Source: Aureibaculum flavum
GTDB taxonomy: Bacteria > Bacteroidota > Bacteroidia > Flavobacteriales > Flavobacteriaceae
Reading direction: 5' to 3'
Assembly: GCF_016406085.1 (NCBI RefSeq)
Contig: NZ_JAEHFJ010000006.1
Location: forward strand, 62,001 to 126,000
Length of the DNA stretch: 64,000 nucleotides
The notes beneath the pieces were generated by a model that ran no database searches, had not been told where the DNA came from, and saw only the letters and a program-made list of their open reading frames with translations. A program made the translations under genes and the position numbers. Of the stretch, positions 2,511-16,851 are shown piece after piece (positions within the stretch are counted from its first letter, which is position 1; each line of letters begins with the position of its first letter).

Positions 2511-2750
2511 AAAGCAACTCAAACGATTCAACTAACGATCTCAAATAATTTAAGAGGAACTAGAACAGTTATAATATTCAACAAATAAAATGAATTTGCG
2601 TATACCATTAATAGTTGCATTTCTAAGTCGCCTATTTGTTTTGTTCCAAAAAAGTATTTCCGAGATAAATACCTATCGTGAATAGTACTATAGACTTTAT
2701 GAAAACTGGTAGAAAATAATAAGAAATAAATTTTTGATTTTAAAATAGTA

Positions 2751-3180
2751 AGGAGAAAAGCTACTTGTAGTGTTAAGCTCATACTTAACCTTTCGCTTCT
2801 CTCCTTTCTCCCCTGAGTTAAACTCCTAAGAGTAATACTTTTATATTTTTTACTAATTCTACTTTTAATAGAAGGAGAAAAGCTACTTGTAGATTTGAAT
2901 CTTCATTCATAATTTTCACTTCTCTCCTTTCTCCCCTGAGTTAAACTCCTAAGAGTAATACTTTTATATTTTTTACTAATTCTATTTTTAATAGAAGGAG
3001 AAAAGCTACTTGTAGATTTGAATCTTCATTCATAATTTTCACTTCTCTCCTTTCTCCCCTGAGTTAAACTCCTAAGAGTAATATTTTTATATGTATACTA
3101 ACTTTAGTTTAATAGAAGGAGAAAAGTTACTTGTAGATATGAACTTTAATTCATAATTTTCACTCCTCTCCTTTCTCCCC
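2751..3180. repeat. Four tandem ~122-bp repeats with conserved nested hairpins
   Basis: Units start at 2751, 2873, 2996 and 3117 (periods 122, 123 and 121); the last one stops at 3180. Each begins AGGAGAAAAGCTACTTGTAG and carries a tail around CTTCTCTCCTTTCTCCCC about 45 bp later. Head AAGGAGAAAAG pairs with tail CTTCTCTCCTT (10 of 11 positions in units 1-3). Inside are a CTAC-TT-GTAG hairpin and a second hairpin whose sequence varies but whose pairing is kept: GTTAAG/CTTAAC at 2772-2789, TGAAT/ATTCA at 2896-2909 and 3019-3032, ATGAA/TTCAT at 3139-3154. Units are joined by spacers holding the palindrome GAGTTAAACTC. No convincing gene overlaps the block. Confidence 0.9.
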
Positions 3181-3444
3181 TAATTTTAGTATTCAGATAT
3201 TATAACGTCGTATTTTCGTTTCTATTATATATTAATTTTATAAAGCAAATGTATGTTCTCAGACCATACCAGTCAATAGTGTAAATGGGTGTTTTTAAAA
3301 ATCAAGGAAAATGGGTAGTTTTTAGGTTTTTACCTAACGCGTTGACATTCAATTATTTCAATCGTTTGTTTTGATGCTAAGGATGAACATTGTTATAAAT
3401 AAATTCAAAAATTATAGAAAAATAATTCTAAATATTTTCATCAT
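3181..3444. other. Gene-free stretch with an echo of the DUF4870 gene tail
   Basis: No coding region is supported. Bases 3307-3321 repeat the 15-mer at 3461-3475, which encodes NYPFS near the end of the DUF4870 gene. On the minus strand the copy reads KNYPFSL before running into unrelated codons, so it may be the remnant of a second DUF4870 copy. A small TAGGT-TTTT-ACCTA hairpin sits next to it (about 3324-3337). The rest is AT-rich sequence without further recognisable signals. Confidence 0.4.
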
Positions 3445-3903: not shown

Positions 3904-5316
3904 ATGAATACACAAGATACAATTATTGCTTTAGCAACTCCTTCCGGTTCTGGTGCCATTGCCGTTATACGGTTATCAGGTAGTAATGCCATTTCTATTG
4001 CCAGTAGCTATTTTAAGTCTATTCATAATAAAAAATTATCCAATCAAAAGACACATACGATTCATTTGGGTAATATAATTGATGGTGAGCGTGTAATTGA
4101 TGAAGTTTTAATTTCTCTCTTTAAGAATCCTCAATCATATACTGGTGAAGATGTAGTTGAAATTTCTTGCCATGGCTCACTATATATCCAGCAAGAAATT
4201 ATGCAACTTTTTGTGAGTAATGGATGTAGAATAGCTGACCCTGGTGAATTTACTTTACGAGCTTTTTTGAACGGTAAATTAGACCTTAGCCAAGCGGAGG
4301 CTGTAGCTGACCTAATAGCTTCTGATTCCAAAGCTTCTCATCAAATTGCCATGCAACAGATGCGGGGTGGTTTTTCTAATGAAATTGAAAATCTGAGACA
4401 AGACCTTTTGAATTTTGCTTCTCTAATTGAATTGGAATTAGATTTTTCTGAAGAAGATGTTGAATTTGCAAATAGAGACGATTTCCAAAAATTGGTCACT
4501 AAAATCTCAACTGTCCTAAAAGCATTAATTGATTCGTTTGCTTTTGGTAATGTTCTAAAAAACGGTATTCCAGTTGCCATTATCGGAGAACCCAATGTAG
4601 GTAAGTCTACATTATTAAACACATTATTAAATGAGGAAAAAGCAATAGTAAGCTCTATTGCGGGTACAACTAGAGATGCCATTGAAGATGAATTAATTAT
4701 TGAAGGAGTAGCGTATCGCTTTATTGATACGGCCGGAATAAGAGATACCACTGATGAAATTGAGAGTATCGGAATTAAAAAAACTTTCGAAAAAACGGCA
4801 CAAGCTCAATTGATTATTTATTTATTTGACGCATCAATAATTAGAAGTAGACATGATGGTGAAATAACTGAATTATTGAATTTGATCAAACATGAAATTG
4901 AAAAGGTTTCCATAAAGTTTCCTGATAAAAAAATGTTGATAATTGCAAATAAATCTGATTTACTTTCCGAAAAAGAAATGGATCAGATTGAAAACCAAAT
5001 TCCTAATATCTTATTTCTTTCTGCAAAAGAAAACGAAGGTATTCATGAATTAAAAGATCAACTAACTGAATTATCTAATATTGGAGTCTTAAGTAATAAT
5101 CAGACCATTGTAAGTAATAGTCGCCACTTTGCCATATTAAACAAGGCCCTAATTGAAATTAAAAATGTTCAATTTGGAATTGACAACAGCATCAGTTCTG
5201 ATTTAATAGCTATCGATATCCGCCAAGCCCTACTCTATTTGGGTGAAATTACTGGAGCAGTAACTAATGAGGATTTGTTAGGTAATATTTTTGCTAACTT
5301 TTGTATTGGGAAGTAA
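3904..5316 (+). CDS. mnmE: tRNA uridine-5-carboxymethylaminomethyl modification GTPase MnmE
   Basis: With MnmG, MnmE forms the enzyme that adds the cmnm group to the wobble uridine of several tRNAs. The 470 residues show the N-terminal formyl-THF-binding domain (1-120, with TPSGSGAIAVIRLSG near the start), a helical domain, and an inserted G domain. G1 GEPNVGKST is at about 228-236, the G2 region SIAGTTRD follows, G3 DTAGIR is near 275 and G4 NKSD near 350. The chain ends in FCIGK, the conserved C-terminal Cys motif. The start is fixed by the TACTTTTG promoter just upstream. It is transcribed alone, with DUF4870 divergent and a long non-coding region downstream. Confidence 0.97.
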   Translation: MNTQDTIIALATPSGSGAIAVIRLSGSNAISIASSYFKSIHNKKLSNQKTHTIHLGNIIDGERVIDEVLISLFKNPQSYTGEDVVEISCHGSLYIQQEIMQLFVSNGCRIADPGEFTLRAFLNGKLDLSQAEAVADLIASDSKASHQIAMQQMRGGFSNEIENLRQDLLNFASLIELELDFSEEDVEFANRDDFQKLVTKISTVLKALIDSFAFGNVLKNGIPVAIIGEPNVGKSTLLNTLLNEEKAIVSSIAGTTRDAIEDELIIEGVAYRFIDTAGIRDTTDEIESIGIKKTFEKTAQAQLIIYLFDASIIRSRHDGEITELLNLIKHEIEKVSIKFPDKKMLIIANKSDLLSEKEMDQIENQIPNILFLSAKENEGIHELKDQLTELSNIGVLSNNQTIVSNSRHFAILNKALIEIKNVQFGIDNSISSDLIAIDIRQALLYLGEITGAVTNEDLLGNIFANFCIGK

Positions 5317-5340
5317 ATTACATCTTTTAGTTTTTACTTC
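5310..5340 (+). terminator. Possible terminator at the mnmE stop
   Basis: GAAGTAAA (5310-5317, overlapping the stop codon) pairs with TTTACTTC (5333-5340) over a 15-nt loop, followed by a T-rich run (TCTCTTTTTATT). The 8-bp stem is AT-rich and weak, so this is tentative. Confidence 0.35.
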
Positions 5341-5846
5341 ATCTCTTTTTATTGCGGAATACAAACCATTGCCCACATAATTAACTTTCTTTAATCTTAC
5401 GTTATTACGACAATATAACCTCTTTGGTACTACACATATTAATTTTGTTGCACAATGTTACTTCATAATGAAAATAGTCCTTTTATTAAATTTAATGTTA
5501 AGTTAATTTTATAATGGTTTGTGAACTTAACGTTATTACAATTCTCTTATAATTACCATCACTTTAAAAAAAATGTTATAATAATAAATAAAATTAGACT
5601 TAGAAATTACGTAAAACTAAAAATATAAACACCACTACTGCATACATTTAAAAACGTTTTGTTAAAAAATTAAAATTTATAAAATTCCATTTCTACGATT
5701 TTTATAGCATAATCTTTTTTAATCTTTCCAATAACTTAAATGTAATACTTCTCTAACAATAAGTTAACCCATTCGGTACTTTCTGGTTCTGTTTAAATAA
5801 TAATTTTGGGAATCAATTTTAACACTAAAACGTAAAATTTTTACTC
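5341..5846. other. Long AT-rich upstream region of the phosphodiester operon
   Basis: About 500 bp without a supportable gene. TTACGTTATTAC near 5398 and TTAACGTTATTAC near 5527 are two loosely similar copies of an ACGTTATTAC motif in direct orientation. A -7 box TAATTTTG (TANNTTTG) at 5801-5808 would start a transcript near 5815, about 30 nt before the lipoprotein gene at 5847. The length of the region leaves room for regulator binding, but no site can be named. Confidence 0.45.
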
Positions 5847-6719
5847 ATGTATAAGAAGTTACTCTATCTATTTTTTAGCATTTGTCTTTTTTCATGTGCA
5901 ACTACAAACGAGTCAAATGTTGTCACAGTACTAACTACAAAGGACGGCTCCAACATTCAAAAGATTCAAAGTATTAACTGGACTAAAAATAAGATTCACC
6001 CAAAAATCAGTTGGAATCACCATCAGTTTCAAGATCTTTTTTCTTCTATACAAAGTATAACCGTGGTAGAAATAAAAAGTCCAGGTAAAAGAATAAAAGC
6101 TGCAGTCGAATACGCTACATCTGGATTTATAAAAACAAGTGATTTTGCTAAAAGCTCAGAAGCATTGGTGGCTATAAACGGCTCCTTTTTCGACACCAAA
6201 AATGGAGGCTCAATTGTCTTTTTTAAGAAAAATGGATTAATTATTAATCAAACTAAAGAAGGTTTTACCCCGACAAGAGAATCAGTTGGATTTTCAATTA
6301 ACAAAAGCGAATCCATGGAAATTATAAAAAAACCAATTAATGGTTGGGCTGGTGCCACGGAAAAAACCATTTTAAGCTCTGGCCCATTACTTCGTTACCA
6401 TGATGTTAATGCCTCTCAAGAAAAAACCAAATTTAATACAAATAGACATCCTAGAACAGCCATTGGACGCACCCAAGATGGTCGAATATTAGCTGTTGTA
6501 GTTGATGGGCGTTCCTCGCAAGGGCAAGGAGTTTCAATAAAAGAATTAGCTCAACTGATGCACGCGTTGGGCTGTGTTGACGCTATGAATTTAGATGGAG
6601 GCGGATCTTCTACCGTATGGATAAAAAATAGTGGCATTGTAAATTTTCCAAGTGACAATAAAATGTATGATCACCAAGGTGAACGTGCTGTAGTAAATGC
6701 AATAATTTTTAAAGAATAA
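5847..6719 (+). CDS. Phosphodiester glycosidase (NAGPA-domain) lipoprotein
   Basis: A 290-residue lipoprotein with lipobox LFSC (Cys17), so probably anchored in an outer or inner membrane. It carries the NAGPA (N-acetylglucosamine-1-phosphodiester alpha-N-acetylglucosaminidase, DUF2233) fold: AINGSFFD near residue 112, GPLLRYH near 180, HPRTAIGRT near 205, VVVDGRSSQGQG near 222 and the hallmark LDGGGSST near 249-256. The mammalian family member removes GlcNAc from a sugar-phosphate diester. Bacterial members are linked to glycans or polymers with phosphodiester bonds. It opens an apparent operon with SusC, SusD and a PHP phosphodiesterase (32 bp to susC). The substrate is not known. Confidence 0.88.
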   Translation: MYKKLLYLFFSICLFSCATTNESNVVTVLTTKDGSNIQKIQSINWTKNKIHPKISWNHHQFQDLFSSIQSITVVEIKSPGKRIKAAVEYATSGFIKTSDFAKSSEALVAINGSFFDTKNGGSIVFFKKNGLIINQTKEGFTPTRESVGFSINKSESMEIIKKPINGWAGATEKTILSSGPLLRYHDVNASQEKTKFNTNRHPRTAIGRTQDGRILAVVVDGRSSQGQGVSIKELAQLMHALGCVDAMNLDGGGSSTVWIKNSGIVNFPSDNKMYDHQGERAVVNAIIFKE

Positions 6720-6751
6720 TAACTTTTAATACCCAAACCTAAATTAATATT

Positions 6752-9700
6752 ATGAACATTAGAAAATTACGAAGTGTATGGTTTTTAATTTACCTGTTGT
6801 ATTCAATCAACAGTTTTTCACAAGAAATAAAAATTGATGGAGAAATTAAAGATGAAGAAAACATAGCCATTCCCGGCGTTACTGTTTTAATAAAAGGCAC
6901 CAAAAAAGGGGCAGTTAGCGATTTTGATGGGAAATTTACGATTACAGTACCTGATGGCGAAAATAGTATTTTAGTTTTCTCATCTGTCGGTTATAAAACT
7001 CATGAATTAAAAATAGCAAATCAAGTAAATCTACAAGTCCGCCTGCTTGTAGATAATGAAAGTTTAGAAGAAGTAGTTGTTGTAGGGTATGGCACACAGA
7101 AAAAAGAAAACTTAACTGGTGCAACAAGTCAAATTGAAGCTAAAGATATTGCTTTAAGACCTTCATCCAATATTTCAACGGCATTACAAGGCTTATTACC
7201 AGGCTTAAATATTCAAGTAAATTCTGGAGATCCTTCTGCAACACCAGACATCAACATTAGAGGGTTCAACTCTATTAATGGAGGTAGTCCATTAGTCTTA
7301 ATAGATGGTATCGTAGGTGATATAACACGGGTTAATCCACAAGATATAAAAAGTGTTACCGTTTTAAAAGATGCTGCTTCAGCGGCAATATACGGAGCTA
7401 GAGGAGCCTTTGGGGTAATATTAATAACCACTAAGACAGGTAAGCCAGGAGAAATGAAGGTAGAATACACCAACAATTTTGCATGGACTACAACCACGAC
7501 GCGAACTGATTATATTTCTGACCCTTATGTATATGGTAAAACAATAGATGCCGCAATTTTCGGTTACAATGGAACTAGTTTCACCGGTTATAATGATGAT
7601 GATTGGGAGACCATTCAAGGAGTTGCCAATGGCACAATAGAACCATTTCATCAAGTGCAACCTAATGGAACTAATAAGTTTTTTTATAAAACAGATTGGT
7701 ATAATTATTTATTTAAAAAATGGCAACCTTCACAAAACCATAATGTTTCTATTTCCGGAGGAACAGAAAAATTACATGGATATTTGTCAGGAAGATTGTA
7801 TGATAGAGAGACCATAAACAATTTTCAAGATGGTGGATTGAAACAAAACAATATAAAGACAACGCTAACCTTTAAGCCAACAAGCTGGTTAGAGCTATCA
7901 AACAATGTTTTATTTAATCGTGAGCAAAATAAAGAGTATGGAGGCTTTAGAAGTGGGTATGGAGGTATTTGGAGTACTACAACTTGGTATGACTTAGCAG
8001 CTTTTTATCCAAATGAAATGGATGGGATTCCAACGGATATTGGAAGAAGTGGAAATGGTGGTCAAGGTGGACATGCAGCTATGGAAGCTGGTAATAATTA
8101 TCGCACTTTCAACTCAGAAGAATTTACCAATACATTTAGGGTCAAAATAACCCCAGCTAAAAATTTAGAACTAAATTTTGATTACAGTAATAGAATTTCT
8201 AATATTTCTAATAGTTACCGACTAAACGAATTTGAATATTTAGCATCTAGCCGTCTTACAATGCAAACAGCAGGATTAAATAGGTTGACTGAATATAGAA
8301 ATAGAAATTACTATAATGCTATGAATATATTCGGATCTTATTCAACATCAGTTGCAGAAGATCATAATTTTAAATTACTATTAGGTTATAATCAAGAGGA
8401 CTATGAAGCTGATAATGTAACTGCAGAACAGGGAGGTCTTTTGGTAAGAGATGAATCTAATCTTTCTTTTGGCACTGAATTGTTACGGGCAGATGGTTCT
8501 GCTCAACTTTGGGCCGTTCAAGGTTTTTTCGGACGATTTAACTACGATTATAAAAATAAATATTTGCTAGAAGTAAATGCTAGATACGACGGATCCTCAC
8601 GTTTTCCAAAAGATAGTAGATGGGGATTCTTTCCATCAATTTCTGCAGGATGGCAAATTAATCGTGAAGATTTTTGGGAACCACTTAGTAGCACTGTAAG
8701 CACAATTAAACTTAGAGCTTCTTATGGTGAACTAGGAAACCAAAGTATTGGTGTAAACACTTTTCAAAGTTTGATGGGAACAGGTCAAACAAGCTGGTTA
8801 AACAATGGTGATCGATTAAATTATGTAAGTGCTCCAGGGCCTTTACCAACAACCGTAAGTTGGGAGACTACAAAAAGTTTAGATTTTGGAATTGATCTTG
8901 GATTTTTTAATAATAAATTAAATGCTACGTTTGACTGGTACGAGAAAAACATTGAAGGAATGTACTTGCCAGGAACACCGTTACCAGCAGTATTTGGATC
9001 TTCAGAACCTAAAGAAAATTTAGCTTCTTTACGTAATAGAGGTTTTGAATTGAGCTTGAACTATAGAAATTCTTTTATTGTAGGAGGATCTCCGCTATCA
9101 TTAAGTGCAACAGCAACAGTTTCTAATTTTAAAGGAATTATTACAAAATACGAAAACCCTGAAGGTTTAATGAGCTCATACTGGGAAGGTCAAGAATTAG
9201 GTGTGATTTATGGTTATCAAACTGATGGTCAATTTCAATCTGATGAAGAAGCGTTGGCTTATCAGAATTCATTTGCAAATCCATCAGGTGACTTAAGTCA
9301 AGTTTATAGATACATTCTTAACATTGTTCAGAATAGTGAGTGGAATAAATTAAGAGCAGGTGATGTTAAATATCTAGATACAGATGGTGATGGAAGTATT
9401 GATCGTGGTAATTATACGTTAGACGATCATGGAGATTTAAAACCAATTGGTAATGCAATGCCAAAATTCCCATTCGGATTTAATATCAATGCTTCATGGA
9501 AGGGTCTTGATTTATCTATTGCAGGTGCTGGAGTTGGTAAACAAAATTGGTACCCAACTGGTGATATCTATTGGGGTCCATACCAAAGACCCTATTTAAC
9601 TTTAATAAGAAAGGATTTAGTAGACCAAGCATGGACAAGTGAAAGCCCAGGTCAGTATCCTCAAATCTATAGAGGCTACTCTTCTTTAGGAAGCGGTCGA

Positions 9701-10006
9701 TCACTCTACGAAATGAATGACCATTATCTTAAAAATATTGGATATTTAAGAATCAAGAACCTTACTTTAGGATATACTATACCTGAAAACCTAACCTCTA
9801 AATTTAATATTGACCGCCTGCGTTTCTATATTAGTGGAGAAAATATTCTTACCTGGAGATTTGGAGATTTAACAAAATACGTTGACCCTGAGCAAGCAGG
9901 ATCAGCTATAAACTATTCAAGCCCAGGTAGTGCTGTTGGTCGTGCTGATTTACGGTCTTATCCAATGGGAAAAACCTTCTCAATGGGCATAAACATATCC
10001 TTATAA
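6752..10006 (+). CDS. SusC/RagA-family TonB-linked outer membrane protein
   Basis: A 1084-residue TonB-dependent transporter that imports oligomers bound by its SusD partner. It has a signal peptide ending near SFSQ (residue 24), then a carboxypeptidase-regulatory-like domain (about 26-105: GVTVLIKGTKKGAVSDFDGKF). A TonB-box-like EEVVVVGYGTQKK (about 107-119) comes next, then the plug domain with NIRGFNSINGG and LKDAASAAIYGARGAFGVILITTK (about 160-230), and a beta-barrel to the C-terminus. Length and ending (SMGINISL) are normal. It lies 32 bp after the phosphodiester glycosidase and 26 bp before SusD. Specificity cannot be read from the protein. Confidence 0.95.
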   Translation: MNIRKLRSVWFLIYLLYSINSFSQEIKIDGEIKDEENIAIPGVTVLIKGTKKGAVSDFDGKFTITVPDGENSILVFSSVGYKTHELKIANQVNLQVRLLVDNESLEEVVVVGYGTQKKENLTGATSQIEAKDIALRPSSNISTALQGLLPGLNIQVNSGDPSATPDINIRGFNSINGGSPLVLIDGIVGDITRVNPQDIKSVTVLKDAASAAIYGARGAFGVILITTKTGKPGEMKVEYTNNFAWTTTTTRTDYISDPYVYGKTIDAAIFGYNGTSFTGYNDDDWETIQGVANGTIEPFHQVQPNGTNKFFYKTDWYNYLFKKWQPSQNHNVSISGGTEKLHGYLSGRLYDRETINNFQDGGLKQNNIKTTLTFKPTSWLELSNNVLFNREQNKEYGGFRSGYGGIWSTTTWYDLAAFYPNEMDGIPTDIGRSGNGGQGGHAAMEAGNNYRTFNSEEFTNTFRVKITPAKNLELNFDYSNRISNISNSYRLNEFEYLASSRLTMQTAGLNRLTEYRNRNYYNAMNIFGSYSTSVAEDHNFKLLLGYNQEDYEADNVTAEQGGLLVRDESNLSFGTELLRADGSAQLWAVQGFFGRFNYDYKNKYLLEVNARYDGSSRFPKDSRWGFFPSISAGWQINREDFWEPLSSTVSTIKLRASYGELGNQSIGVNTFQSLMGTGQTSWLNNGDRLNYVSAPGPLPTTVSWETTKSLDFGIDLGFFNNKLNATFDWYEKNIEGMYLPGTPLPAVFGSSEPKENLASLRNRGFELSLNYRNSFIVGGSPLSLSATATVSNFKGIITKYENPEGLMSSYWEGQELGVIYGYQTDGQFQSDEEALAYQNSFANPSGDLSQVYRYILNIVQNSEWNKLRAGDVKYLDTDGDGSIDRGNYTLDDHGDLKPIGNAMPKFPFGFNINASWKGLDLSIAGAGVGKQNWYPTGDIYWGPYQRPYLTLIRKDLVDQAWTSESPGQYPQIYRGYSSLGSGRSLYEMNDHYLKNIGYLRIKNLTLGYTIPENLTSKFNIDRLRFYISGENILTWRFGDLTKYVDPEQAGSAINYSSPGSAVGRADLRSYPMGKTFSMGINISL

Positions 10007-10032
10007 TTAATAAACATTTAAGCTTTTTAAAA

Positions 10033-11754
10033 ATGAAACATTTAACTTATTTATTGCTCATACTATTGACATTTTCAAGTTGTGAAGACTACTTAGAACG
10101 TGCTCCTAAAGATCAGGTTGATTCAGCGTTTTTCTTTAATTCAGCCAAAGACTTAGAAGTTGCAACTAACGATTTTTACTCAATGTTACCAGGTAAAGAA
10201 GTATATACTGATGATTCTTCTTCTGATAATGTAGTAACATTATCCACTGCTGATAGATTGAAAGGAACTAGAATTGTACCTACAAAAAGAGGAACTGGAG
10301 GGTGGTCATGGAGCAACTTACGTGATATCAATTTTTTTCTAGAGAATTATACAAAAGTTGATGATGAAGAGGCCCTGAAAGAATATGGTGGAATTGCGAG
10401 ATTTTTCAGAGCATTTTTCTACTTTGATAAAGTTAAAGATTTTGGTGATGTACCATGGTATAGTAAAGTATTAAATGCTGGAGATGAGGATTTATATAAA
10501 GCTCGAGATTCAAGAGAACTGGTTATGGATTCAATAATGGCTGATATTGATTATGCTATTGAAAACATTCCTGCTCAAGTTGAAGTAAGTAAAATTACCA
10601 AGTATACTGCACTAATTTTAAAAGCAAGAATTGCCTTGTTTGAAGGAACTTTTAGGAAATATCATAATTTAAGTGGTCATGCAGCCTTTTTAGAAGCCGC
10701 TGCTGATGCTTCTAAAAAATTGATAACCTCTGGTACATATTCTATTTATTCTATTGGAGGTCCTGAAGCTGCATACCGTAATTTATTTTCAAGAAATGAT
10801 CAAGATGCTACAGAAACTATTTTAGCAAGAGATTTTGATCGCGAAAAACAAACACATAATCTTGGCTACTTAATGACAGCTCCTACCAATGGAGCCTACG
10901 GACTTACCAAAGATTTAGTAAATAGCTATTTAATGTCTGATGGATCACCATTTACAAATAAACCAAACTATGGTACAATGCAATATTATCAAGAAATACA
11001 GAACAGAGATCCTAGGTTAACGCAAACCACCGCTGGACCTAATTTTATTGTTAATGGTGAAGGCTCGGTTGAGCCAGTGACACTTAATGGAACCACAACA
11101 GGTTATAGAATTATCAAAGGCTTGCCATCTAGAGATCAATGGAATGCCGCATTTTTTGATGTCGTAATTTTTAGATACGCTGAAGCTCTTTTAATTTATG
11201 CTGAGGCAAAAGCGGAATTAGGTACATTAACCCAAGAAGATTTAGATATTAGTGTAAATGTTTTAAGAGATCGTGTTAGTATGCCTCATTTAGTAATGGA
11301 AAATGCAAATACTAATCCAGATGCTTATCAAGATGCAATGTATACCAATGTTGATAATGGAGCCAATAAAGGAGTAATCTTAGAGATTAGAAGAGAAAGA
11401 AGAGTCGAATTGTTTAATGAAGGTCTGCGTTGGGACGATTTAATGAGGTGGAAAGAAGGAAAAAAAGTTGAACAACCCATGCTTGGATTATACTTTCCAA
11501 ATTTAGGATCTTTTGATTTTAATAATGATGGAACAGCAGATGTTTATGTACACAATGGAGATATTTCAGGTGCACCAACTGGGATAACTTCATATATTAA
11601 TGTGCAACAACGAACACTAACCAACGGTAATGAAGGTAATTTAAATCCGTTTAGTGAAGGAGGATCTTTTGATGAAAGTAGAGATTATTATTATCCAATT
11701 CCTTTAGAAGATTTGGCATTAAATGATAACTTAATTCAAAATCCGAATTGGTAA
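10033..11754 (+). CDS. SusD/RagB-family nutrient-binding outer membrane lipoprotein
   Basis: A 573-residue surface lipoprotein: lipobox FSSC with Cys17, followed by EDYLERAPKDQV, the usual SusD N-terminus. It has the TPR-like helical scaffold and the typical C-terminal RRERRVELFNEGLRWDDLMRWK segment (about residues 455-477) and ends DNLIQNPNW, as SusD proteins do. It forms the lid of the SusC transporter and captures substrate at the cell surface. It is immediately downstream of susC and 33 bp before the PHP gene, so all are likely co-transcribed. Confidence 0.95.
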   Translation: MKHLTYLLLILLTFSSCEDYLERAPKDQVDSAFFFNSAKDLEVATNDFYSMLPGKEVYTDDSSSDNVVTLSTADRLKGTRIVPTKRGTGGWSWSNLRDINFFLENYTKVDDEEALKEYGGIARFFRAFFYFDKVKDFGDVPWYSKVLNAGDEDLYKARDSRELVMDSIMADIDYAIENIPAQVEVSKITKYTALILKARIALFEGTFRKYHNLSGHAAFLEAAADASKKLITSGTYSIYSIGGPEAAYRNLFSRNDQDATETILARDFDREKQTHNLGYLMTAPTNGAYGLTKDLVNSYLMSDGSPFTNKPNYGTMQYYQEIQNRDPRLTQTTAGPNFIVNGEGSVEPVTLNGTTTGYRIIKGLPSRDQWNAAFFDVVIFRYAEALLIYAEAKAELGTLTQEDLDISVNVLRDRVSMPHLVMENANTNPDAYQDAMYTNVDNGANKGVILEIRRERRVELFNEGLRWDDLMRWKEGKKVEQPMLGLYFPNLGSFDFNNDGTADVYVHNGDISGAPTGITSYINVQQRTLTNGNEGNLNPFSEGGSFDESRDYYYPIPLEDLALNDNLIQNPNW

Positions 11755-11787
11755 ACTGTCGCACCAATTGTTGAAATCAATTAAATT

Positions 11788-12957
11788 ATGAAAATAAATA
11801 TTATTGTAGCCTTTTTTAGTACTTTGTTGGTTAGCGTAACATGTATTGCCCAAGAATTAAAGAGGAATAATCGTTTAAATATTCCAGATATTCCAGGCTA
11901 TATGACATTAAAAGCAGATTTTCATTTACATACGGTCTTTTCGGATGGACATGTTTGGCCTACTTTTAGAGTAAGAGAAGCTCAACAAAACGGCTTAGAT
12001 GTTATTTCATTAACTGAGCATATCGATTATGAAGGTTTTCCAAATGAATTGGCCTATAATCGAGAAAGAGCATTTGAAATTGCAGAAGCAGCAGCAGAAA
12101 ACACAGAAGTATTAGTAGTACGGGGAGTCGAAATTTCTCCCCGTGTTCCTCCTTACCATCACAATGCTCTTTTTCTTAAAAATGTTGATAAAATACCCTA
12201 TCAGTATATGAAAGACACACATAACACCTTTATTATGAAGGATAAAATTGAACGATCAGAATTGTTGGCACCGTTTTTAGAAGCACAACGTCAAGGTGGT
12301 TTTGTATTTTATAACCACCCCAGTTATAATTGGTGGGATAAAAAAGATACTCTTTTGTTTACAGATTTCCATCAAGAATTATTAGATAAAGAAATTTTGG
12401 CTGGTGTTGAGGTTTCAAATTCTGGTAGATATAACAAGATTGCCCATGAGTTTGCTGAAAAATATGATTTAACTATCATATGTAATTCAGATGAACATTA
12501 CGATATAGCTTCAAGGTATAAAGATAATCATAGACCGATGACTTTAGTGTTTGCCAAAGAGAAAACAGAGGCCGCAGTCGCCGAGGCACTTCGAAAAAAA
12601 CGAACATTGGCCTATTTTAGAGACTATTTAGTTGGACGTTTTCCAGAAGCTGATGCTTTTTTTAGAGCTTCAATTGAAATTATTCCAGAAAAAGGAAAAG
12701 GTAAAAACTCTCCTTTATTAAAAGTTCACATTAAAAATACTACACAAATACCTTATCGAGTTCAGTTGAAAACAGACTATTTAATAGAAGATTTACCCTT
12801 AGGCCAACTAATCATTCCTGCAAATGAAACTAAAACCATTATTCTAAATCCCATTTGGAAATACCCTAAAATTATCACTTTAGATTTTGTTGTTCAGAAT
12901 ATATTAGTTTCCCCAGAAGAGGCTCTTAAAACAACTATCACAGTTCCTATTGACTAA
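11788..12957 (+). CDS. Secreted PHP-domain phosphodiesterase (Sb-PDE-like)
   Basis: A 389-residue protein with a signal peptide (cleavage near CIAQE, residue 22). Its PHP-type trinuclear metal site is visible: DFHLHTVFSDG (His46, His48), LTEHIDYEG near 74, RGVEISP near 111, HHNALF near 121, FYNHPSYNWW near 172 and NSDEHYD near 231. The arrangement resembles the Sb-PDE family, named after a Sphingobium phosphodiesterase, rather than polymerase or histidinol-phosphatase PHP proteins. The last 100 residues form a probable beta-sandwich. As last gene of the SusC/D operon it plausibly hydrolyses phosphodiesters or phosphomonoesters released from the imported substrate in the periplasm. The substrate is inferred, not seen. 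Confidence 0.85.
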   Translation: MKINIIVAFFSTLLVSVTCIAQELKRNNRLNIPDIPGYMTLKADFHLHTVFSDGHVWPTFRVREAQQNGLDVISLTEHIDYEGFPNELAYNRERAFEIAEAAAENTEVLVVRGVEISPRVPPYHHNALFLKNVDKIPYQYMKDTHNTFIMKDKIERSELLAPFLEAQRQGGFVFYNHPSYNWWDKKDTLLFTDFHQELLDKEILAGVEVSNSGRYNKIAHEFAEKYDLTIICNSDEHYDIASRYKDNHRPMTLVFAKEKTEAAVAEALRKKRTLAYFRDYLVGRFPEADAFFRASIEIIPEKGKGKNSPLLKVHIKNTTQIPYRVQLKTDYLIEDLPLGQLIIPANETKTIILNPIWKYPKIITLDFVVQNILVSPEEALKTTITVPID

Positions 12958-13740: not shown

Positions 13741-14931
13741 TCATTTCTTTTTTGAAGTATCATAAATTGCTTTCAAAAGACTATTCTTCTCATCCGTATC
13801 ATTGCCCAATTCCCAAAACATAATTCCTCCCAAATTATTTTTTATAGCATATTCTGTTTTTAGTTTAACCGAAACGGTATCGTCATAAGAGATAAAAATA
13901 CTGTCCTTGGCACTAAACAGATAAGGTGCTTTCGCAATGGAATCCCAATATCTTTGATAATTACTGTTACTTTCAAATTGATTTCTAATTTGCATATAGG
14001 GACTCCATCCTATATATGACCCCGTATTGGTTTGATATAAGCCATTATTAGTAGGTGGTACTCCTTTCCAAGCCCTACCGTAAAAGGCAGCCCCAATAAC
14101 AATTTGTTCTGGTGAGATGCCATTTTCAAGGCAATAATCAATTATCTTCTCCGCTGATTGGGGCTCAAAGCTATAACCGTTCTTTTTCATTTCCTCATTT
14201 TTGGCATCAACAAATTTTCCATAAGGTGTAGCCTTCAAATCCACTGATTTGATCCAACCTAGAGCCGTGTGATGACCTGTAAAGGTGGACGTTGCAATAA
14301 TTTGATCATAGGTCATTACATTTATATAATCGACATATTTCATCACCTCCTTAATCTCTATATTTTTATAATAGTATTTCCATCCTGCGGAAGCAAAGGT
14401 TAAAGTCTGCTTATTATCTAAAGTATTCAAACCTTCCCTAAGTTCCTTCATTAAAAGCGTGAAATTTTCTTTGTCTTCAGGCCTAGCACCTGTATTAGCC
14501 GCAGGAATACCCGGATATTCCCAATCTATATCCAGGCCGTCCAATTTATATTTTGTTATAAATTGTACTACACTGCTTACAAATTTTTGCCGATTTTCCG
14601 CAGTGTGAGCCATGTCAGAAAACCCATCTGCCCCCCATCCTCCGCATGCAATCATTACTTTTAAGCTCGGGTGGTTCTTTTTCTCCGCTACCAATTGTTG
14701 AAGTTTAACTACCAAACCCTCATTACTAAATTTCATTTCACCATCAATTACTTTGGTGAAGGAGTATATAATATGCGTCAATTGATCTAATGGAAGTTGC
14801 TTGGGATTATTATACCATCTTGGGACATAGTAGGCTATAACAGCGATTGGGTCTTTTTGGCTATCATTGTTCCAATCCTTAGGAAGGATAAAAGCAATGA
14901 GTATAAAAAACAAATAACCGAAATATTTCAT
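13741..14931 (-). CDS. GH18 family glycosyl hydrolase (chitinase-like)
   Basis: A 396-residue secreted protein starting MKYFGYLFFILIAF, with the GH18 catalytic motif DGLDIDWE (residues 131-138; Glu138 is the general acid) and the preceding strand KVMIACGGWG. Further conserved pieces are INVMTYD and GAAFYGRAWKG, and the closing strand FWELGND. GH18 enzymes hydrolyse chitin or related beta-1,4-GlcNAc chains. The frame extends 15 codons further upstream, but a TAAATTTG promoter box at 14950-14957 lies inside that extension, so 14931 is the start. There is no carbohydrate-binding module and no SusC/D partner beside it, so it stands alone. Confidence 0.9.
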   Translation of the reverse strand: MKYFGYLFFILIAFILPKDWNNDSQKDPIAVIAYYVPRWYNNPKQLPLDQLTHIIYSFTKVIDGEMKFSNEGLVVKLQQLVAEKKNHPSLKVMIACGGWGADGFSDMAHTAENRQKFVSSVVQFITKYKLDGLDIDWEYPGIPAANTGARPEDKENFTLLMKELREGLNTLDNKQTLTFASAGWKYYYKNIEIKEVMKYVDYINVMTYDQIIATSTFTGHHTALGWIKSVDLKATPYGKFVDAKNEEMKKNGYSFEPQSAEKIIDYCLENGISPEQIVIGAAFYGRAWKGVPPTNNGLYQTNTGSYIGWSPYMQIRNQFESNSNYQRYWDSIAKAPYLFSAKDSIFISYDDTVSVKLKTEYAIKNNLGGIMFWELGNDTDEKNSLLKAIYDTSKKK

Positions 14932-14949
14932 TTTGAAAAATTTTGTAAA

Positions 14950-14957
14950 CAAATTTA
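14950..14957 (-). promoter_or_regulatory. Promoter -7 box of the GH18 gene (TAAATTTG)
   Basis: Read on the minus strand, TAAATTTG fits TANNTTTG, 18 bp upstream of ATG 14931. The transcript would start near 14944. Confidence 0.5.
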
Positions 14958-15156
14958 ACGAAAAAAAGAATATCAATAGTGGTATTATTCTTCCTTAAAG
15001 ACAGAATGAAAAACAATATCTTATATAAATAGCAAATAGTATTCTGCTATTCCCCCACCCCAAACACCACTACCTCAATGTTTATGGAAATAAAAAAAAT
15101 ATCGGTAAATAAATCTTTAAATTTATATTGAAAAAACCGAAATTTTATTGTTAAGA

Positions 15157-16851
15157 TTACATACTATAAAATTCAATCAAATTTGCTTCATAATATTGAT
15201 CCCCTAATTTGGTTAATAAATTACGAATCACATTACTGTCACCATCTATTGCCAACGCAGAATAACCTACATTATTCAATTTACCTAATCTTAAATCTAT
15301 AATATTAATATCTTTTGAAGATAAAGCAGAGAGCAAAATCAACAACACTCCAGGAGCATTTTTATGTTTGGTTAATATTACTTTTTCACTTAATGCCAAT
15401 TTTAATTCAACACCATCCATTTCTAATAAATAAACACCTTCTCTATAGTAATTTGGCAATCGGGCATTCTTTTTATAGGTTAAATTATGAAACAATTCAG
15501 CACTCGCACTTGTACCATTTACAAAGTCAATGGCACTTTGAATGTTTCCATTATCACTTTCAATCGATAAAAATGCCACTGCAGTACCATCATTATTTGA
15601 CTTTAATCGTGCCGTTTCAACGTTTATTCCTTCAGAGGCCAAAGTATTAAACAATGAAGAAATAACTCCGGGTTTATCTACATGTTCAGAAAACAATCCA
15701 TTTACAGGTAAATCTGCAGATATTGGAATTTCATTTGTAACCGTTATTGACTTTCCCCATTTACGTATTCGAATTGCATTGTAATCCCCCATTCCTGTAG
15801 AATTTTTATAGATGTCTACAAATTCTAAAAATGAGCCCCCAAAAGAAAAATCAGGAATAATTCTTCGATGGGCTATATCCAATCGTTGATTTAGCAATTC
15901 AATACCTTTATTTAATACCGTATATTTCACTTTTAAATCATGATCATCATAGATGGTACGATTCTCTGGAATTAATTTTGAATAACTAACATAGCTATTA
16001 TAACCTGCTTCTTGAATATATTCAAGACTCTCCTTAAAATTTAATGCGTAATAGCGAACATGATGCGTATCGGTTCCTACGCAAACTGGTATTTGAAGTT
16101 CATTTGCTCTTCTTAAGATACTCTGAATCGGATAAACACCTACTCCTTTAAATTTACCTGCCATATCTACATCTATTGAAAGATTCCGATCCGCAATCAA
16201 CTCTAATAGTGTTCTAACCTTATTTGCTAAAGGATGTGAACTCGTCTCAAAATTCAATAATGCTTCAGGCATATCAACATTCAGTTTTGGTAAATCTATA
16301 TGCCCAACAATTTGAATCATATCACCAAAACATTCAATCATTTGAATAGTTTCGTTAAAATAACCATCCCAATAGGCCTCCAGACTTCCTCTCATTTCCA
16401 ACAATTGGAGAGCTTCCTCTTTTGAACCATCATAAGGCAAACCTTCTGGTGCAAAATGTACTGAGCCAATAACATAATCAGCACCTTCTGCCTGAAATAT
16501 TTTTGAACGACTCCACTGCAATCCTAAATCAGCACCCATCCATTCTAGCTCAACACCGTATTTAATATTTATTTTACCTTCGTACTTTTTACGAAGACCC
16601 GCAATTCGTTTTGGATAATTTAAATATGATCTATTGCCACGAATAAACTTTACGTTTGTTTCTCTTTCCGCTATATATCTAAAATTTGTTAAGCGAGGAG
16701 AGTGTATTATAAAGGTAATACTCGGATGATTTGCTTCTATAGCTTTATCAACAACTTTTTCTAATTTATCAATACCATGTTTTACACGATCTTGTTCGGT
16801 TCCGGCATGAATACCATGTGTCTCCCAAATAAAGTCATTCAGTTTTTTCAT
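15157..16851 (-). CDS. PHP-domain (histidinol-phosphatase-like) protein with two C-terminal ACT domains
   Basis: A 564-residue cytosolic protein. Residues 1-300 resemble the HisK/HisJ-type PHP histidinol phosphatase: ETHGIHAG near 10, SITFIIHSPR near 45, KYGVELEWMG near 97, the hallmark DYVIGSVHF near 123-131, IVGHIDLPK near 181 and VCVGTDTHH near 256-264. Two ACT-like domains follow: about 385-455 (HVDKPGVISSLFNTLASEGINVETARL) and about 490-560 (HKNAPGVLLILLSALSSKDINIIDLRL). ACT domains usually bind amino acids as allosteric sensors. No his gene is nearby. It may be a regulated phosphoesterase in amino-acid metabolism; substrate and ligand are unknown. It is a single-gene unit. Confidence 0.75.
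   Translation of the reverse strand: MKKLNDFIWETHGIHAGTEQDRVKHGIDKLEKVVDKAIEANHPSITFIIHSPRLTNFRYIAERETNVKFIRGNRSYLNYPKRIAGLRKKYEGKINIKYGVELEWMGADLGLQWSRSKIFQAEGADYVIGSVHFAPEGLPYDGSKEEALQLLEMRGSLEAYWDGYFNETIQMIECFGDMIQIVGHIDLPKLNVDMPEALLNFETSSHPLANKVRTLLELIADRNLSIDVDMAGKFKGVGVYPIQSILRRANELQIPVCVGTDTHHVRYYALNFKESLEYIQEAGYNSYVSYSKLIPENRTIYDDHDLKVKYTVLNKGIELLNQRLDIAHRRIIPDFSFGGSFLEFVDIYKNSTGMGDYNAIRIRKWGKSITVTNEIPISADLPVNGLFSEHVDKPGVISSLFNTLASEGINVETARLKSNNDGTAVAFLSIESDNGNIQSAIDFVNGTSASAELFHNLTYKKNARLPNYYREGVYLLEMDGVELKLALSEKVILTKHKNAPGVLLILLSALSSKDINIIDLRLGKLNNVGYSALAIDGDSNVIRNLLTKLGDQYYEANLIEFYSM

Follow-up and report, generated by a model that had tools for sequence, protein, structure and literature searches.

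Polysaccharide utilization loci (PULs) of the susCD type are defined by adjacent susC and susD genes accompanied by genes for carbohydrate-active enzymes (CAZymes), yet many susCD loci do not fit this definition. In the PULDB survey by Lapebie et al. in 2019, 14,713 of 30,951 susCD loci were devoid of CAZymes, sulfatases, or peptidases, and 576 CAZyme-free loci carried phosphodiesterases (detected through the Pfam families PF00149 and PF01663), with nucleic acids proposed as one of their targets (PMC6499787). In Flavobacterium johnsoniae, Lidbury et al. (2021) described inorganic phosphate (Pi)-induced SusCD complexes, PusCD, co-localized with phosphodiesterases and phosphatases in ‘phosphate utilisation systems’ (PUS); further Pi-induced clusters encode polygalacturonase-like lipoproteins, and PusD proteins are polyphyletic (PMC8115612). 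Here, we describe an operon of Aureibaculum flavum that is probably a variant of such loci for phosphorus scavenging and not a common sugar-degrading locus. It is found in a 64,000-nucleotide stretch of contig NZ_JAEHFJ010000006.1, referred to below as the window, and encodes a lipoprotein with the NAGPA domain, a SusC-SusD pair, and a secreted protein of the PHP superfamily.

The four consecutive genes occupy positions 5847 to 12957 of the plus strand in the order NAGPA, SusC, SusD, and PHP with an immunoglobulin (Ig)-like domain, and are separated by only 32, 26, and 33 bp. The list of open reading frames (ORFs) thus bears out, at exactly this span, the close same-strand order from which the original prediction had started. 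Its claim that the operon has no glycoside hydrolase (GH) was likewise upheld: in Pfam searches of the four genes, GHs, polysaccharide lyases (PLs), and carbohydrate esterases were all absent, so that of the susCD-type PUL definition only the adjacent susC and susD are present. The nearest GH, a GH18 protein, is encoded on the opposite strand (13741-14976), beyond a separate small ORF downstream.

Like the PUS of F. johnsoniae, the window operon has SusCD next to predicted phosphodiesterases instead of CAZymes. It falls under the PUS definition (SusCD with phosphodiesterase or phosphatase genes and no CAZyme) by family assignment only, supplemented by a lineage-wide association described below. 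The polygalacturonase-like lipoproteins of the Pi-induced clusters are comparable to a beta-helix lipoprotein encoded by relatives of the window operon. However, the PUS enzymes include PF00149, PF16670, and PhoA types, and NAGPA, PF09992, and PHP are absent from the main text of that paper (PMC8115612). Induction by phosphate depletion has been demonstrated for PUS. The CAZyme-free loci of Lapebie et al. belong to the same locus class, although they were counted through PF00149 and PF01663 only. Because phosphodiesterase SusCD loci have not so far been described with NAGPA or PHP, the operon is a NAGPA variant of a known locus class. Accordingly, it does lie outside the usual CAZy-based catalogue, as had been proposed, but the class as such had already been published (PMC6499787, PMC8115612). 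No paper in the literature collection searched contains both ‘phosphodiester glycosidase’ and ‘polysaccharide utilization.’ Another locus from the same family (L040, genome G006) also has a NAGPA gene in a SusCD operon, but its SusCD is unrelated and is accompanied by the amino-sugar glycoside hydrolases GH20 and GH109.

Evidence for a link between NAGPA and SusCD comes from comparative genomics, which covered 249 genomes of the window's family, 395 Bacteroidota genomes searched for NAGPA, and 251 genomes of a second family (f3) searched for SusD. The 26 loci with the most similar SusD (the window, Galbibacter marinus, and 24 f3 loci; hereafter, the lineage) were compared with a control set of 40 further SusD loci, drawn from Galbibacter, one f3 genome, and the genome that contains the window. 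NAGPA genes adjoin SusCD in 22 of the 26 lineage loci versus 1 of the 40 control loci (Fisher's P, 1.7e-12), a P value that overstates independence, as a single family contributes 24 of the 26 loci. The window NAGPA, being upstream of SusC, was entered into this count by hand; without the window, the orthologous SusCD loci of 25 other genomes give 21/25. At least one of the NAGPA, EEP, GDPD, Metallophos, and PHP families is encoded nearby in 24/26 lineage loci, 14/22 loci of a sister lineage, and 4/40 control loci. Neither EEP alone nor GDPD alone was enriched in the core lineage. The Pfam tally of lineage operon genes comprised 24 NAGPA, 16 AP_endonuc_2, 16 DUF218, 7 GDSL, 3 EEP, 2 PHP, and 1 GDPD, and the only glycosidase-like entry among the 25 most frequent families was a single GHL10 protein; the control loci yielded GH16 (6), GH88 (3), GH10, GH20, GH3, GH43, and others. 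The conserved core consists of SusCD and NAGPA, not of the four-gene set. The co-occurrence of the four families in Bacteroidota, which had been proposed as a check, holds for SusC, SusD, and NAGPA and fails for the complete set, as PHP is found in just 2 of the 26 loci, those of the window and Galbibacter; PHP was accordingly rejected as a core gene.

In a SusD tree of 88 loci, the 26 lineage loci form one branch (support, 100), which is adjoined by the 22 sister loci (support, 83); the window and Galbibacter are paired (support, 99), and all other rows of the 21-row group in which they lie are f3 loci. Galbibacter marinus (G030, contig NZ_AMSG01000022.1; locus L038 within L044) is the closest second case among the 249 family genomes, with 69% identity to the window in SusC, 70% in SusD, 61% in PHP, and 51% in NAGPA. 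The genes are arranged there as a divergent extracytoplasmic function (ECF) sigma factor, SusC, SusD, an AP_endonuc_2 TIM barrel, a GxDLY/SGNH hydrolase, PHP, and NAGPA. Since the four families recur, reshuffled, in another genus, the four-gene cassette of the window is not a chance neighborhood.

The 24 f3 loci, with SusDs 59 to 67% identical to that of the window, typically encode an ECF sigma factor, an anti-sigma factor, SusC, SusD, the TIM barrel, a BACON/beta-helix lipoprotein, a DUF218 protein, and NAGPA, in that order; variant lineage loci carry EEP, GDPD, SGNH, or multidomain NAGPA proteins. The best NCBIfam match of the TIM barrel was the CbiR phosphodiesterase, but its score of 38 bits falls below the cut-off of 105, so the protein was assigned to the AP_endonuc_2 superfamily alone. 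The f3 lipoprotein (564 aa) is predicted to combine a BACON domain with a right-handed beta-helix that is closest to pectate lyase Pel9A (Z score of 29 over 334 residues, 3.1 Å), followed by alginate lyases and epimerases, rhamnogalacturonan lyase, and phage tailspikes. This likeness is no proof of function. Such uncharacterized BACON proteins with PL9-like beta-helices (L073:6703-8394 and 17 relatives), encoded in most f3 NAGPA operons, are candidate depolymerases or glycan-binding proteins. The sister SusCD lineage is associated with other phosphoesterases, namely, EEP, GDPD, and calcineurin-like proteins, and at one sister locus two GDPD genes are found with a major facilitator superfamily (MFS) transporter that looks GlpT-like by eye. 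Four genomes of the Galbibacter genus carry compact SusC-SusD-EEP operons with ECF and anti-sigma genes (L058-L061), and two loci that combine SusCD (43 to 45% SusD identity) with GDPD genes and a GlpT-like MFS transporter, again judged by eye (L129 and L130), are candidate glycerophosphodiester utilization loci.

The NAGPA lipoprotein scored 136.8 bits against PF09992 (cut-off, 25), and its AlphaFold2 model (pLDDT, 88) best matched the structure of BACOVA_00430 (PDB entry 3ohg; DUF2233) and the vertebrate mannose-6-phosphate uncovering enzymes, with E values down to 5e-18. It retains the motifs NG, RTA, VDG, NxDGGGS, PSD, and R, which 27 bacterial relatives share with the vertebrate enzymes. 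Thus, it shares with the latter and with BACOVA_00430 the domain, the fold, and the invariant motifs but is only ∼18 to 24% identical to them in fold alignments and is a bacterial lipoprotein encoded in a SusCD operon. Cleavage of sugar-1-phosphodiesters is its predicted activity. Lipoboxes were recognized, by eye and with a regular expression, in the NAGPA protein and SusD, and a plain signal peptide was seen in the PHP protein. Several other NAGPA genes were encountered. One, near genes for a 3-keto-disaccharide hydrolase, a sulfatase, and a Gfo/Idh protein, is broken by in-frame stops (L042; G000:C1:789822-790561), while the congener G119 (L039) has an intact gene next to the same serine-hydrolase and glutamate-synthase genes. 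The window's genome also encodes a 1397-aa protein with a C-terminal NAGPA domain and an N-terminal part that appears glycosyltransferase-like by eye (L041:4564-8757), and the NAGPA gene at L101:10900-11772 is split into two ORFs, owing either to a frameshift of recent date or to faulty assembly.

The PHP protein scored 32.1 bits against PF02811 (cut-off, 26.4) and 50 bits against the DUF5001 Ig-like domain (PF16392). Its closest solved relative, PDB entry 3e38 (E value, 1.7e-55), has the same two-domain extent and the same metal-binding motifs, HxH, TEH, E, NHP, and DxH, but is itself uncharacterized. The score of 60 bits against the CehA/McbA metallohydrolase model NF038032 is below the curated cut-off of 80. 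Of the two “phosphodiester-acting enzymes” originally proposed, both family assignments stand, while the reaction type of the PHP protein, including its label of phosphodiesterase, is a guess from the family. Single-copy PHP homologs ∼40% identical to it are found in the window's family, and those examined adjoin housekeeping genes, not SusCD operons of their own. A genome-wide PHP scan matched only Galbibacter; because it used just two short patterns, it sets no bound on PHP distribution. Elsewhere in the window (15157-16851), a HisJ-like PHP domain is fused to ACT domains similar to those at the C termini of phosphoglycerate dehydrogenases; it is 94% identical in congener G119.

The operon begins just downstream of mnmE (Table 1). 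Two congeners whose MnmE is 97% identical match the window at 95% DNA identity up to 5315-5317, the mnmE stop codon, beyond which these genomes (L173 and L174) carry integrase-bearing elements in place of the operon. The element that was scanned with Pfam starts with tyrosine integrase, helix-turn-helix, VapE, toprim, and relaxase genes. The mnmE 3' end is thus a hot spot for insertion in the genus. SusD was found at high identity in the window genome only (1 of 17 congeners). No att direct repeats of the mnmE end were found within the window. Because the operon starts where the hot spot begins, it was probably acquired horizontally. No sigma gene adjoins the operon in the ORF list, and promoter-like matches in the leader were not more common than in shuffled sequence. 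An mnmE-like gene also adjoins a SusCD-PHP locus (L054:100-10474) in one further genome and a NAGPA gene (L075:9720-12062) in another, with details that differ from those in the window. Upstream, between miaE and mnmE, there is a 123-bp tandem repeat in 3.6 copies (2744-3181), and related repeats occur in congeners.

Table 1. Features of the window discussed in the text
Feature	Position	Strand	Size and evidence
mnmE (trmE); its 3' end bounds the variable region on the left	3904-5316	+	Pfam TrmE_N/MnmE_helical
Leader without ORF, presumed operon promoter region	5317-5846	.	530 bp; ORF list
NAGPA-domain lipoprotein (predicted sugar-1-phosphodiester glycosidase)	5847-6719	+	290 aa; PF09992 E 1.1e-39, fold, motifs
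SusC-like TonB-dependent transporter without STN signaling domain	6752-10006	+	1084 aa; TIGR04056 823 bits
SusD-like ligand-binding lipoprotein	10033-11754	+	573 aa; PF07980, SusD_RagB 148 bits, lineage placement
Secreted PHP metallohydrolase with C-terminal DUF5001 Ig-like domain	11788-12957	+	389 aa; PF02811, PF16392, 3e38 match

Taken together, the NAGPA co-occurrence and the phosphoesterases of the sister lineage support the original proposal of a phosphodiester-directed, GH-free SusCD operon. The interpretation that we favor, with fair but far from complete confidence, is a mobile or horizontally acquired operon for NAGPA-type phosphodiester utilization, related to PUS. In such a pathway, SusD would capture and SusC would import a ligand with a 1-phosphodiester-linked sugar, either a fragment of a phosphoglycan or a glycosyl-phospho-compound. 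The sugar would be split from the phosphate by the NAGPA lipoprotein, located either at the surface of the outer membrane or on its periplasmic side, and the periplasmic PHP enzyme might then act on the leftover phosphoester, so that both sugar and phosphate could be taken up. Teichoic acid, phosphomannan, and exopolysaccharide, named in the original prediction, would be candidate substrates, used for carbon, phosphate, or both. Several observations weigh against it. We know of no activity assigned to the NAGPA and PHP subfamilies of this operon; same-subfamily NAGPA genes in Bacteroidota mostly sit outside SusCD loci; PHP lies outside the conserved core; and not one of the five phosphoesterase families is encoded near two of the 26 lineage loci (L099 and L110). 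Most loci come from one family and are not independent, and the NAGPA label needs just 5 changes on the SusD tree. Finally, f3 operons have ECF sigma/anti-sigma genes, and STN domains are present in both f3 SusCs scanned with Pfam and absent from those of the window and Galbibacter, which suggests that the f3 operons are induced by ligand, not by phosphate starvation.

The same regulatory genes argue against general scavenging of phosphorus from small phosphodiesters (glycerophosphodiesters, nucleotide sugars, and lipid head groups), as proposed for PusCD1, with no polymeric glycan involved, and so does the PL-like fold of the lineage beta-helix lipoprotein, which points to a polymer. In that case, which we consider rather unlikely but worth keeping in sight, the substrates of NAGPA would be nucleotide sugars or glycosyl-phosphates freed by lysis; consistent with this, the uncovering enzyme also hydrolyzes UDP-GlcNAc (PMC12024695), PUS loci are Pi induced (PMC8115612), the sister SusCDs are accompanied by GDPD, EEP, and calcineurin-like phosphoesterases, and one NAGPA gene (L083) adjoins GDPD and EEP genes. 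It is improbable that this is an ordinary locus for an unusual polysaccharide, with NAGPA and PHP acting as a glycosidase or esterase on nonphosphorylated bonds and the depolymerases encoded elsewhere, given that several unrelated phosphoesterase folds recur with the SusCD lineage and its sister. This alternative draws on the largely uncharacterized state of bacterial NAGPA proteins, on the PHP/CehA-like proteins, which include hydrolases of non-phosphate bonds, on the SGNH hydrolases and the PL9-like fold among the relatives, and on the many susCD loci without CAZymes (PMC6499787). Least probable by far is recycling or remodeling of the cell's own envelope glycans (e.g., phospholipid-linked polysaccharide) rather than nutrition. 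ElyC-type DUF218 proteins are encoded in many of the relatives' operons, and ElyC influences the phosphoglyceride-linked enterobacterial common antigen (PMC8609368), but the window operon has no DUF218 gene, and the TonB-dependent SusCD importer and the patchy, mobile distribution at a hot spot fit nutrition better.

A broader proposal, which we offer only tentatively, is that this operon belongs to a distinct mobile SusCD lineage for sugar-1-phosphodiester glycans, in which NAGPA would take the place of GHs as the main enzyme and the PL9-like beta-helix lipoprotein of many members would open the polymer, a route outside the CAZy-based catalogue. If so, CAZy-based PUL prediction would overlook NAGPA-type loci, and a nutritional function in bacteria would be added to the NAGPA family, which is so far known chiefly from lysosomal targeting in humans. 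The lineage provides a ready set of ∼26 orthologous operons for questions of substrate, regulation, and carbon versus phosphate acquisition.

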